Under the pieces are notes generated by a model, which made no database searches, was not told where the DNA came from, and was given only the letters and a program-made list of their open reading frames with translations. Both the position numbers and the translations under genes were made by a program. A stretch of 64,000 bases of DNA from Symbiodinium sp. CCMP2592 (Eukaryota > Sar > Dinophyceae > Suessiales > Symbiodiniaceae): positions 620,001 through 684,000 of the forward strand of contig CAJNDT010001236.1 in NCBI GenBank assembly GCA_905221615.1. The letters are read 5' to 3'. Each line of letters opens with the position of its first letter. The first letter of the stretch is position 1. Shown one piece after another: positions 33,001 through 45,000 of the stretch.

Positions 33001-36000
33001 GTCCAGGACTGGTCGGGCAGGCAGCAACAACTCTGCTTGGTCCACAACTCTGGCCGCCGTCCAGGACTGGTCAGGGTGACCCTATAGATAGAACATACAA
33101 TCCCTCAAACTCGCCTGGGTTCACGTCGAGGTTTAGGCGATAAAGGTCCCGAAGGTCTGCGGGCTCAGTACTTGTTACTATAGTCCCCATCTACCTATCT
33201 CTACCTTCTCTACCTAGCTACCTACCTATCACTCTACCTATCCTATCATATCCATATGGGAGTTTCCGAAACCAGGGGTACCTTCTTCTGGGGCCCCATA
33301 ATAAGGATCCTACGATTCAGGGTAGTATATTAAGGTCTCCCGTTCTCGGAAGCCCCAATATGTGCCCTTGAGACCCTTTACTTAAAGGGACATGGGACTT
33401 GGTAACTTGGGTTATAATTGAGGTGACTATACTTATGATTACTTATAACCCCAGTTAAAGTATATACTTATAACCTTACTTACTAAGTCCCATGATCCTC
33501 CAAGTAAACCCTGATAAAGCCTATAAGCCCTATATATCCCTTTAAGGCACCCTATACTTAGATCCCGTTAAGGAGCCCTACTTACTAAGTCCCATGATCC
33601 TCCAAGGAGTAAATATCGGGGTTTGTCGGCTTTTTGAGGTTCCGAACTTCATGACTGGTGGTGGGCTTTGTGGGACCCGGGTTCAGTAGGGAGTTGGGTT
33701 TGGGGTATATTTTACTACGGTTTAGGGTTGTTTCGGGTTTAAGATTTAGGGTGGGTTCTGGCGTATAGAGTATAAGTATACGGCTTAGGGTTGTTCAGGG
33801 TTTTAAGATGTAGGGTGGGTTCTGGCGTATCTTGCCAGCTCAAGATATCACATGCAGGGCCAAGTAGGCAGGTCAAAGGCTCTTGTCGGCGATGCTCGAA
33901 AATCCGAAGCCCAAGCCCCAGAACTCCAAGGGCCCCTAGTAGCCTTCAAAGTTCAGTTCAGCTCGTGAAGTAGCGCCGAGATCGTCTTCATCCTAGATCA
34001 TTCTTTGTGTGAAGAGGTGAGGGTTCCCACAAACTCCCAAACCTTTGAGCCTTTAATTAAGGAATACAACTTACTATGCTTTAAATATGATCCCGAACAA
34101 GATTAAAGGTCTATTCCTTATTTAAGGGCTCTAGGATTTCAGGGCTTGCGAAGGCTGAAGATCCGCGGTCTGGTGTCAAAATGCAGGTCTTTGGGTTTAA
34201 GGTTTACCGAAGACCACCAACTGGCCAAAACAGTAGCCCATACATTTTAAATGCCTCTTGATCAGGATAAGGTCCCTTTTAAGAGGTACTGAAGGGTCCT
34301 GTTAGGGTTTGGCAAGAGCTTGAGGGTTTAGGGGTTATAGAGGTGTAGGATTACTCAACCTGTGATTTTTTTGCGTTTCTGAATCTCGGCAGCATCTGAC
34401 CTCAGGCATGGCACTCCCATTGTGAATATCAGCTTCGGCGCATCGCGTGAAGCCCAGCTGCAAGAAGAAAGGGCTTTGCTCGCACGTCGCGACCTGGAGC
34501 CCCTTAGTGTTACAAAGCCGTCGCGGATTCGTGTTCCATGGGAGGTTGCTGATGGAGTTGCTATGATGACAATGATGGGGGGCTTGCAGTTAGCAGTAAC
34601 AACGATGGCGACGAATGGAACGAAACAGGAGTATATGAAGAACGACAGTCAACATCAATGAGCGTGCCCTAACGTCAAAGTCTACGTGTAAACCTTACTG
34701 TAAACCCTAAGCCCTAAACGGCCCTAAACCCTGAACCCTAAGCCCTAAACCCTGAACCCTAACCCTAAGCCCTACACGGCCCTAAACACTAAACCCTAAG
34801 CCCTGAACGGCCCTAAACCCTAAACCCTAAGCCCTATACGGGGTAAAATCCGCCCTGAACCACACCAGAAAAGCCCTGACCCTGAAGCCCCGAAGCCGAA
34901 AACACCCTCAAACCCGGCCGGAAAACAATCCCAATCCCTACAACCACACAACCTCCCTGAAATAAGGACTAGGGTGACCCCAAAGAGGTGGGGAAACCAC
35001 TCAAGCACAAACAAAAACTTTTAAACCCTTGAGCCACGTGTCACGTTGGTACACTTCTCGATGTACCTTAGTGTGTCATCCTTGCGCAGGGCGAGACAAT
35101 GCCATGCGACCTGATTTGTGCGTGTCTTCTTACGCAGGGGCTTTGCTTGCAAGGCCCCTTGCCTCGCACTCCCCCTGCTGTCGAGACAGCACAGGCATAA
35201 GAGCAAAAACTCAGAGGCGCTTTGCATCTGAGCACCCTTGTTCAGGAGAAATCGGGGTAACTGAAGACCACCTAGGACCTAAACCCAAACCATATCCATG
35301 CTCCGATGCCCCTTTGGGGCCCAAGTGATCACTGAGTGATCCGTCCCTTGCGTCTGCTCTTCGCGAGGGGTATGCATCATTAGCACAATGCAGCAGGTCA
35401 AGCTCATGATTATGTAATGCAGAGTCGCATACTGTACCTCAGAAGCCTGTCCAAATTGATTGAAACATCATGATTGGAAAAGTGTTGTGTGCGAACCGAA
35501 TAACCCATCATCCACTAACAGGTATAATCAGCCTTTAAACCACGACATCAGACTATAAACACGTTGCCCAATGCGCTGAGACGGAAAACCAGGTGTAGGA
35601 CCCGATAGCCCAGTTTGGAAAACCATACTGCTTGAAATCATCTTGCGCTTGATTCCCGCAATCACCACCAACTGCGGATCATGCCACTTCGAAACACCGC
35701 CGAAACGACCTTGTGGACTGCGACCATGACGAAAACCAATACCAGAAGAAATCCGATATCCGCTCGATCAAACCATCGCGTTGTTGAAGACGTAGTCATC
35801 GAAGAAGTCGAAGAAGTTGCTTGCACCAGTTCGTAGCCTTGCAACATAGTAGCCACGAGGATGGCCACGGCGGCGGCCGCTGCACGTGCTGCATCAGAAA
35901 CCAAATGCGTGCTAGGAGCAGTCGTCATCTGCCACATCTGCTTGAGGTTGACAAAGATTGCTCCGTTCATCAACTTGGTCAGCATATCAGCTAGCATGTG

Positions 36001-42000: not shown

Positions 42001-45000
42001 CTTTTTGGCTGAAACACCCCCGCTGTTTGCCCCAGACCCTTGCGACAACTTAAGCGACTTCAAGATGTCCAAAGCCTCTGCCATCACGCGTGAATTGTCA
42101 GATGCCGTCGAAGAAGAAGCAACATTACCCGCACCAGAACTACCAGTATGTATTGAAGCCTCCTCCGTTGCCGTAGCTGACTTAGCCGTGGCCTTCGCCT
42201 TCGCTTTTGCCTTTGCCGTTACCAGTTTATCCATTTGCTCTTTTGTAATCGGAGAATGCGAAAACTTGCACCGATCCCCAAACTGGCAAGACTTGTCCAA
42301 ATGAAAGCCCCAACATGGAGACTTGTCCCCTGGTCCTGACTCAGATTCCCTCGACTTGCCTTTCCCCTTTCCAGGTTCATCCTGTGCTCTCGCTCCTGAC
42401 GGCTCAGATGTTGTGGATGTTGATGTTGTAGCTGTCGTGGCGGCGCGAGCGGCTGCTTTCGCCTCAGCCCTCGCCTGAGCCTTTGCAAGCTTAGCCTTCT
42501 TTTTTGCATCACCATCATCATCACCAGTACTGTGTAGCAAGAGTTCCAATTCAGCTTGAAGAAAGATGGCTAACTCCCCAACCGTCAAGGATGTTGGTGA
42601 ATAGTCTGGCCCTTTCCGCTCCCGAAAAGTCGCCACCCGAAATAAAACCGTTGGATGTTTCGAAAGCACTGCAGAAACCATTGTGTCAAGACCTTTCACT
42701 AAAAGTGTAGCATCCGGTTCAGCTGCATGTAGTTCTTTCAATCGCGACCTCCATTGCACCCACTGTCTGACTCCCTTGATCGCCTCCTGCACTGAAGTAG
42801 CCGAGGTAGGTGACACCAGATAATGCAACATTGTGCCTCTCTCATGGGCGCCGCCCGGTTGGTATACCGTAAGGAGTTTGAAGAGAATCTGGGAAGGGGA
42901 CATCCGTCTTGTGGCTACAATATCTGTCTTTACAACTTCAGGAATCGCCTGGAGCAAGAGAATTGAAGCCCGTTGTTCCAATAAGATGTGCTGTGGCATG
43001 TGCGTACCATACATCTCTAACTCCGCCTGGATGCCAAGCCGCTCTAATGGTGACACCGAGAGCCACTTAGTGTACGCGCGCGAAGCTCGATCAAAGGTGT
43101 AGTCCCACCACACATGGCCCGAATCTGTCAAACTAGAAAGTGTAGGCTTGACAATCGCCAACCAATCACCCAAAGCTGTAGGATTTGATGCGCTGTATTC
43201 CGATAGAGTTGGCAACGACATGACATGTTTGCCCAGCACCTCTGGACGCTCCACGGTATGCCCCATCCCACTCGCCACCTGCGGAATAGAAGACGACGGA
43301 CCTGGATGAGGAGAAGCAGCAGGAGTTAAAGCCACAGGAGAAATATCCAAAGTACCGTTGATCACCCGCCACTTGTAAGGAATCCCAGAAATCATGGTGA
43401 CCCCAGCCGCTGCTTCACTGGATGTGTGATCCCGAGACACCGAAGTTGCAGGAGCAGGACGTCCGGGTGATTGACCAAAGGTTGGAGCATTGTCCGCAAC
43501 CGAACCCCTAGCACCACTCCCACCCGAACCCCGAGAATCCTGAAAAGGGAAAAACGGCTGTACAGGATGCTTTTGGTTGGCACTACCACTCAGACTACCA
43601 ACTACTTGCCCCAACGATTGCGACCCGGGGCCCTCAAAGACCTCTGGCCCGATTGCAGAGCTGGCGTTCCTGTGTGGCACATCCACCCTCGCTGCTGACG
43701 GTATCGCGCCACTCAATTGCAAAGCTCCCCTCCTCTAACTCCGCCATGTTAAAGATCACCGCCCCAACTGGAATTCGATTCTCATCAACCCACTCCCACT
43801 CACCAGCGGCTGTGAAATTCCAAATGGTTCCCAATGCATCCCGATAATACTCCTTTCCTTCAAGAATAACCGCACTAGATTCCAAAGGTCTTTGCACATC
43901 CACGTCTGATGGAATGCTTGTCGTCGGAGCCTGCAAACCTGGAGGATGTTGTGGAACAAACTTGCCCAGCGACACTGTCTCTACAGACTTTCCAGAATGT
44001 ATCGAGCCAAAACTTCTCTCTTCTACTCTCTGCATTCTCTCTGATAGTTGCGCTTGGAATTGCGCTTGGCTTTCCATCATAGTTCGCAACAGAGTTTCCA
44101 AGCGGCTCAAGCGTCCCAGTTCCGGTTGGTCTGGAATCAACTCTTCTTCTGTTTTATCTGGTTTAATCGTAGTTGATGAAGAAGGCGTGGCGGCTGGAAG
44201 ACCGTCCACCGGCTGAACTTCCCTACTCCCGCGATCCAGGGCTGACGAAGGCAACGGTTGTGGAACTGTTGGGCGCCTAACGGGACCATAACTAACTGGA
44301 TTACCTACTGGAACCGTTACCCCCGCATGCCCAGCAACGCTTGAGTCTTCCAAGGGTGGTAAAGTTGCAGGTCTCATCTGCCGAAGTTGGGATTCTGTCC
44401 GCGCTCGCTCACTCCAAAATGCATGTGGTGTGCTTACAGACTGCATCTCATGACTGCGAGCCACTGCGCTTGACTGCATCTCTTGATTGCGAGCAGTCAC
44501 GCCTGACTGCATCTCATGACTGCGAGCGGTCACGCTTGACTGCATCTCATGACTGCGGGCCACTTCACGACCATCTAACAAAGCAGGAGCAGGCCCAGCA
44601 GAACGCGAACGACGCATAACAGGATCCATGGCTTAGCACAGGGGGAACCGCGTTTGGGCTCCTAACCTACGGGGTAAAATCCGCCCTGAACCACACCAGA
44701 AAAGCCCTGACCCTGAAGCCCCGAAGCCGAAAACACCCTCAAACCCGGCCGGAAAACAATCCCAATCCCTACAACCACACAATCCCTGAAATAAGGACTA
44801 GGGTGACCCCAAAGAGGTGGGGAAACCACTCAAGCACAAACAAAAACTTTTAAACCCTTGAGCCACGTGTCACGTTGGTACACTTCTCGATGTACCTTAG
44901 TGTGTCATCCTTGCGCAGGGCGAGACAATGCCATGCGACCTGATTTGTGCGTGTCTTCTTACGCAGGGGCTTTGCTTGCAAGGCCCCTTGCCTCGCACCC

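Follow-up and report, generated by a model that had tools for sequence, protein, structure and literature searches.

Can a single retrotransposon polyprotein carry both a domain of the kind that methylates DNA and a domain of the kind that oxidises methylated bases? The question was raised by a stretch of 64,000 nucleotides from the dinoflagellate Symbiodinium sp. CCMP2592 (assembly GCA_905221615.1, contig CAJNDT010001236.1, positions 620,001 to 684,000 of the forward strand; this whole stretch is "the window"), in which an original prediction, made from the letters alone, had placed a DNA methyltransferase-like and a TET/JBP-like dioxygenase domain in one copia polyprotein. The 2686-residue frame in question (35662–43722, minus strand) does exist, and the motifs lie at the residues that had been given for them, i.e., HLHSGGP at 951, GGPPC at 1000–1004, ENP at 1084 and FRTRY at 1131 for the methyltransferase, and HRDRHND with H1794 and D1796, TGGELW at 1814, H1862 and R1871 for the dioxygenase. 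The frame is part of a long terminal repeat (LTR) element of the Ty1/copia type that occupies window positions 34837–44997 on the minus strand and has the LTRs, the 5-bp target site duplication, the order protease, integrase, reverse transcriptase (RT), RNase H, and the RVT_2 type of RT expected of that group; the integrase precedes the RT in the Pfam matches, which therefore follow the Ty1/copia order. The window sequence alone would leave the oxygenase and the methyltransferase claims open, and it was conservation in distant copies that put both domains beyond chance. The earlier view is thereby corrected: the oxygenase appears to be a conserved enzyme, the methyltransferase domain a related fold.

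The oxygenase domain, here called OX, lies between integrase and RT (coordinates of all features are collected in the table below). Its bare H-x-D/H/R layout is no evidence by itself, since shuffling the segment 200000 times produced it 32842 times (16%); a tighter layout, with H[RKV]D..N and GG-x-[LI] and picked after looking, arose in 2 of 200000. The best Pfam family for the window segment, among 24736, was Tet_JBP (PF12851), with an E-value of 0.023–0.067 depending on trimming and 12.9–14.4 bits against a curated cut-off of 34.9, the match spanning the HxD and GGELW region. Tet_JBP was matched by none of nine shuffles, one of which matched another family at 0.21, and it was absent when the whole 2686-residue frame was scanned at E 1. 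The relatives were then drawn from the organism's own assembly (1.098 Gb, 5383 contigs), with 150 candidates scored in each of the searches with OX, with the methyltransferase-derived domain and with the second element type described below. For OX there were 4693 first-look candidates, and all of those scored reached 7.1e-22 or better. Across the window copy and 25 relatives (28–36% identity) the invariant alignment columns include H105, D107, N110, G127, W130, H173 and G180, which are H1794, D1796, N1799, G1816, W1819, H1862 and G1869 of the polyprotein, and column R182 (R1871) is nearly invariant. In a wider table of 48 rows, consisting of the window and 47 diverged sequences (identity down to 22% where measured, near-identical family members included), the first His, the Asp and the Asn were kept in 48 of 48, the distal His in 47 of 47 (one row is truncated) and the Arg in 42 of 47. 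The set behind it comprised 57 entries, of which 54 passed, L239, L241 and L247 being dropped as having no OX; six close copies were kept outside the table. The roles of the iron and 2-oxoglutarate (2OG) residues are presumed by analogy with known 2OG enzymes.

The same domain has been held under constraint. The ratio of nonsynonymous to synonymous substitution rates (dN/dS, by NG86, which is rough on few differences) was 0.04–0.23 in 22 pairs with dS of 0.04–0.56, and 0.13–0.65 in six pairs near saturation (dS 1.25–1.49), 28 pairs in all. When 26 OX members were compared with Pfam at E<=0.1, six matched 2OG-FeII_Oxy_3 (PF13640; best 2.3e-6), four matched Tet_JBP (best 0.0024) and one matched Asp_Arg_Hydrox (0.0096); at E 0.01 and with 27 members the numbers were three, one and one, and no other family appeared. 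Three further relatives gave chance-level families alone (0.06–0.08), and the best Tet_JBP scores among the relatives were 26.7–29.6 bits, short of the cut-off. Because of the conserved triad together with the Pfam matches of the relatives, OX is assigned, on sequence grounds, as a 2OG-Fe(II) dioxygenase under strong constraint, and it is probably enzymatically active. The dioxygenase part of the prediction thus stood, and its TET/JBP part stayed below the curated cut-off: some of the relatives favour TET/JBP over other 2OG-Fe(II) families.

The methyltransferase-derived domain (MT), between protease and integrase, was harder to place. Its motifs are named I, IV, VI and VIII after the scheme of C5 methyltransferases, and the patterns KPTDIWTN and WRTRHL were likewise chosen before being searched. 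In shuffles, [AGS]PPC followed by EN[PV] at suitable spacing arose 8 times in 200000, and never in 200000 when KPT, chosen after looking, was added. The window MT (residues 880–1235 or 930–1181) had no match in Pfam, PHROGs or NCBIfam, its single match in the PDB was a zinc finger at E 1.5, i.e., chance, and against a profile of methyltransferases from viral contigs it did no better than shuffles, the hhalign score being 13.5 with shuffles up to 24.6. The family as a whole was more informative. A search of the genome with MT gave 556 candidates and, from the 150 scored, 169 matches; all 49 loci taken from it matched, and 42 sequences (the window and 41 diverged ones, with eight close copies outside the table) share in most members HLFxG, an Asp, PP-x-x-T, ExP and QGxxGHxxxKPTT. 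The last of these, at residues 1144–1156, is the conserved C-terminal motif of MT; FRTRY, which had been read as motif VIII, is not conserved in the alignment.

The reference set of C5 methyltransferases from viral contigs was gathered by the C-terminal motif only and held at least 120 open reading frames (ORFs), with a profile built from 51. All three full ORFs that were compared with PF00145 matched it (1.5e-5, 0.004 and 2.6e-9, that at 0.004 below the cut-off), and a 105-residue fragment of a fourth had no Pfam match. Against this profile the MT family scored 48.1 over 64 columns (E 1.6e-6, probability 90) in an alignment that runs from motif I through motif IV, with none of 60 column-permuted controls exceeding 18.75 and the OX profile scoring 14.3; MT and OX profiles showed no relation to each other. 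The viral-contig profile itself scored 41 against three DNA methyltransferases (DNMTs) of the host. A set of eight methyltransferase ORFs selected by pattern is circular for motif IV and therefore was not used as main evidence. Host DNMTs were considered as the source of MT and rejected, the similarity being marginal. The domain has also been under purifying selection: of the 28 pairs with dS no higher than 0.374, 22 had a dN/dS of 0.06–0.32, and the six others, at 0.86–1.10, all involve L188, which has stops, or L189, both of which have a shifted tail. Two further pairs near saturation (30 in all) gave 0.15–0.18, and pairs without the motif IV cysteine were equally constrained (0.06 and 0.08). 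By these comparisons MT is a predicted METHYLTRANSFERASE fold, homologous to the small C5 methyltransferases of the viral-contig type and far from the host enzymes. What was kept of the predicted methyltransferase-like domain is therefore its homology, found by profile-profile comparison, and its purifying selection, and not a PF00145 match or a general catalytic cysteine (see below).

The two domains also travel together. In 17 of 20 diverged MT elements (20 of the 41 were read) a same-strand OX match follows downstream of MT; 1.6 kb were fetched for each, and in the three misses (L239, L241 and L247) OX may lie beyond. Among the 17, L251 is split over two frames, L238 is cut by the end of its stretch and L249 holds stops, and the rows are not independent, near-identical members such as L242/L250 and L243/L252 being among the 20. 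In C3335 and in C1172 the MT and OX matches share the strand and the length of the frame (3260 residues in the former, 1118 in the latter), the common frame being judged by length only. Thus related elements bear out that both domains are under purifying selection and that the pair is common to distant elements. In the window, too, they do share a single frame, which is not the whole coding region, as a further frame overlaps it upstream.

A search of the whole genome for Tet_JBP led to a second type of retroelement. Four matches were found at E<=1e-3 (150 of 155 candidates scored), none over the cut-off, whereas the same search of 14 control genomes gave none at that threshold; all four proved to be related to OX (E about 1e-24 to 1e-32). 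In the second type (C485:47746–48792; L253, L266) a 1283-residue frame holds OX, MT, RT and, by eye, an RNase H-like segment. Its MT has the motifs EVFSG, APPC, ENP and a KPT-type motif (read out in one sequence, the APPC stretch being present in all four), and its RT, of the RVT_1 family (0.0044, below the cut-off), lies in the same frame, in which no integrase was seen. Downstream of it there is a further RT-like frame of 607 residues (RVT_1 0.0003, below the cut-off). Compared with the copia MT, the second-type MT scored 61.3 over 173 columns (permuted maximum 22.8, n=40); compared with the viral-contig set it scored 33.1 over 149 columns (permuted maximum 22.4, n=40), and with the eight pattern-selected ORFs 19.8. 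For the second-type OX, Tet_JBP was the sole family at E<=0.01 (3.6e-6, 26.7 bits, below the cut-off). A genome search with this type gave 2053 candidates, and many of the 150 scored lie in frames of 1230–1285 residues; in three members with 38–44% identity OX lies directly upstream and the cysteine is kept, so that both the pair with OX and the motif IV cysteine are present in all seven second-type sequences read (four nearly identical). By these matches, OX and MT folds co-occur in two retroelement types of one genome. Scans for relatives in the viral-contig and genome-contig sets found none, and tblastn on phage records gave nothing convincing.

The reading that we favour, and that we hold about as probable as its alternatives taken together, is that of a copia polyprotein with a probably active OX and an MT descended from C5 methyltransferases, in which OX would oxidise a base. 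A number of observations weigh against it. For OX, R1871 is missing in 5 of 47 rows; the copia OX finds its best Pfam match in the generic 2OG-FeII_Oxy_3 and not in Tet_JBP, most members matching neither; four unrelated Pfam families appeared at 0.021–0.09 among the 26 members; and the PDB searched with the OX profile gave nothing at E 10 and, in a second search, one chance match at 1.7. For MT, PF00145 was matched by none of 14 members, nor by the window MT; the PDB searched with the MT profile gave chance matches alone (0.12 and 4); and the scores against the three host DNMTs were 24.8 for the copia family, which is marginal with a permuted maximum of 22.05 (n=60), and 13.9 for the second type. 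Above all, the motif IV cysteine is present in only 12 of 42 MT rows, the others having Gly (9), Asp (5), Ser (4), Thr (4), Pro (3), Arg (3), Leu (1) or Gln (1). Methylation is therefore not a general property of MT, because the cysteine is so often replaced although purifying selection on the fold persists, and the predicted methylation was not supported as a general activity; judged from these alignments, much of the copia family as sampled has an MT for which catalysis is optional or has been lost. A loss of catalytic residues in most related copies, which the prediction had named as telling against itself, was thus found for the cysteine (30 of 42), though the window and the eight other close copies that were read retain it, and was not found for HxD/H/R.

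In the favoured reading OX would oxidise a base in a nucleic acid with which the element deals, be it the target DNA or the cDNA or RNA of the element itself, the most plausible substrate being the methyl group of thymine or of 5-methylcytosine. MT would give nucleic-acid recognition, possibly with base flipping, for OX or for the integrase. Where the cysteine is kept, as in the second type and in the subfamily of the window element, it may also methylate, and such methylation could feed the oxidation. Many copia lineages have lost the nucleophile yet keep the fold and OX, so that in these MT is more likely a recognition module and OX the shared activity. The benefit might be that new copies resemble the host's modified DNA, or that silencing marks are evaded. 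Oxidation of thymine in cDNA is an attractive idea because 12–68% of thymines are replaced by 5-hydroxymethyluracil (5hmU) in those dinoflagellates that were measured, according to the part of PMC11071213 that was available. A bolder form of the idea is that retroelements of two classes share a module, made of a 2OG-Fe(II) base oxidase and a C5-methyltransferase fold, that writes oxidised bases, perhaps 5hmU, into their own cDNA or into the host genome, and that the thymine-oxidising enzyme of the host could derive from the OX family; this we regard as a long shot. The family of transposon-borne candidate base oxidases, with its 4693 first-look candidates (150 scored), in any case offers concrete proteins for 5hmU chemistry, and the pairing suggests that these elements come equipped to modify DNA or RNA themselves.

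In one alternative OX removes methyl marks from the bases of the RNA of the element itself, and MT is an RNA-binding remnant. It is unlikely, though it fits the lack of the cysteine in most sampled copia relatives and has a precedent in the 2-ODD domain of an LTR retrotransposon with m6A demethylase activity in vitro (PMC9289625, seen in excerpt); no AlkB-type Pfam family is among the OX matches listed, and some OX relatives match Tet_JBP. That MT acts as a cytosine methyltransferase and OX as the oxidase of the methylated base, both within one polyprotein as in the original prediction, is again rather unlikely. The loss of the cysteine in 30 of 42 MT sequences while selection persists (the cysteine-less pairs at 0.06 and 0.08) argues against this, as does the His in motif I in place of the classical Asp, whereas the cysteine is retained in the nine close copies and the seven second-type sequences, and de novo CG methylation by retrotransposon DNMTs has been described in a dinoflagellate and charophyte study (PMC5890265, in the portions at hand).

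Base chemistry is given up altogether if OX hydroxylates proteins in the manner of prolyl hydroxylases, with Gag, integrase or a host chromatin protein as its substrate. The generic 2OG-FeII_Oxy_3 as the best family of the copia OX (2.3e-6) and the Asp_Arg_Hydrox match of one member (0.0096) would suit such an enzyme; that OX is paired, in two types of element, with a domain derived from methyltransferases points to nucleic acid, and the Tet_JBP matches of the relatives speak against it as well, so that we consider it quite improbable. As for functionless sequence, i.e., chance motifs or a decaying capture, the window segments by themselves would have permitted it, with weak results in the PDB, PHROGs, NCBIfam and Pfam, no library match above a curated cut-off and a bare layout found in 16% of shuffles; the invariant residues and low dN/dS of distant copies run counter to it, and with the residue tables of MT and OX, the dN/dS values and the MT profile score it is already contradicted and has a negligible chance of being right.

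Domains of either kind have been met in other mobile elements. SymbioLINE-Dnmt and SymbioDIRS-Dnmt3 of Symbiodinium and KnitGypsy-Dnmt3 are likewise dinoflagellate or algal retrotransposons with a cytosine methyltransferase domain (de Mendoza et al. 2018, PMC5890265, as far as that paper was available); they are LINE, DIRS and gypsy elements with domains of the PF00145 type, whereas the window MT sits in a copia element and escapes PF00145. The same paper, in the part available, places DNMTs in elements of the LINE, DIRS and gypsy classes and states that Symbiodinium Copia has no DNMT domain, and its main text makes no mention of TET, dioxygenase or 2OG, whereas the window element has an oxygenase; a 2025 paper (PMC12344493, in excerpt) names DNMT3 for both Copia and DIRS with reference to that study. 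Transposon-borne 2OG-Fe(II) dioxygenases are shared with the TET/JBP-bearing elements of fungi (Kojima 2025, PMC12730594), which are DNA transposons and Helitrons and for which the passages available mention no methyltransferase partner. The orchid Ty3/gypsy elements with an AlkB (2-ODD) domain (PMC9289625) resemble the window element in being LTR retrotransposons with a 2OG-Fe(II) dioxygenase and a conserved HxD/H/R; they differ in that the domain is a separate ORF of the AlkB type in a plant gypsy element, no methyltransferase domain being mentioned in the passages available, and it demethylates m6A RNA in vitro. In phages, sets of C5 methyltransferases and TET/JBP enzymes collaborate in methylation and oxidation as separate phage-encoded proteins (PMC12730594, same passages), unlike the window element, in which the folds of both enzymes are in one retroelement polyprotein. 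No description of the OX and MT pair in retroelements was found in the open-licence PMC literature, as far as its texts were available, and priority is not certain as subscription papers mostly lie outside it.

Table. Features of the copia element, in window coordinates (aa, residues of the 2686-residue frame)
Feature	Position	Strand	Basis or remark
3' LTR, 332 bp	34837..35168	-	matches 5' LTR save one 2-bp gap
Purine-rich tract adjoining 3' LTR	35169..35180	-	direct reading
2686-aa open frame: CCCH zinc finger, protease-like, MT, integrase, OX, RT, RNase H	35662..43722	-	
RVT_2 reverse transcriptase, aa 2122-2328	36739..37359	-	Pfam E 2e-12
OX, 2OG-Fe(II) dioxygenase domain (predicted), aa 1690-1891	38050..38655	-	relatives' conservation, Pfam
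R1871, 2OG-binding Arg by analogy	38110..38112	-	42/47 readable rows
H1862, distal iron ligand by analogy	38137..38139	-	47/47 readable rows
H1794-R-D1796, iron ligands by analogy	38335..38343	-	H and D kept in 48/48 rows
Integrase core rve, aa 1392-1457	39352..39549	-	Pfam 6e-7 (whole frame), 7.6e-8 (segment)
MT, domain homologous to C5 methyltransferases, aa 930-1181	40180..40935	-	profile-profile comparison
KPTT of conserved QGxxGHxxxKPTT	40255..40266	-	like KPT-type motif of viral-contig C5 methyltransferases
Motif VI equivalent ENP, E1084	40465..40473	-	Glu in 37/41 rows with a letter
Motif IV GGPPC with C1004	40711..40725	-	Cys in 9/9 close copies, 12/42 of wide sample
Motif I equivalent HLHSGG (most relatives HLFxG)	40855..40872	-	
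Protease-like DSGASH, aa 754-759	41446..41463	-	direct reading
Second protease-like motif DTCASH, aa 590-595	41938..41955	-	direct reading
CCCH zinc finger, aa 469-491	42250..42318	-	Pfam zf-CCCH 0.0007, zf-CCCH_4 0.0004, both below cut-off
Upstream frame, 331 aa, overlapping 2686-aa frame	43634..44629	-	ORF reading
5' LTR, 330 bp	44668..44997	-	LTR comparison

The copia element of the window is young. A 5-bp direct repeat, CCCTA, flanks both of its ends inside a telomere-like repeat, and CCCTAAA-like repeats of the telomere type lie on either side of it (34701–34839 and 44977–45081), so that the element seems to have been inserted into a tract of this kind. Protease and RNase H of the polyprotein were assigned by motif alone. 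DSGASH and DTCASH form tandem protease-like motifs in one polyprotein, the N-terminal DTCASH being without the canonical Gly, and the C-terminal tail after RNase H (35662–35900) contains, by eye, a hydrophobic, membrane-like stretch. The 331-residue upstream frame, for which a Pfam scan gave no match, overlaps the long one at 43634–43734 in a different reading frame. Because three close copies (C2757, C5040 and C1491) have a single frame of 3033 residues, the window copy is probably frame-broken near its N-terminal part, with the break outside MT and OX; a programmed frameshift between the two frames was considered and dropped for the same reason.

Elsewhere in the window, a long repeat tract at 27816–28668 gives rise to spurious poly-Thr/Leu/Ser frames. 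In the genome as a whole, the dinoflagellate spliced-leader sequence occurs exactly 429 times (217 + 212) and not once when read backwards, which marks the host as a dinoflagellate. There are also many repeated frames of 530–563 residues with PF00145 (e.g., C391:985549–986652), which are perhaps the published dinoflagellate retrotransposon DNMTs.

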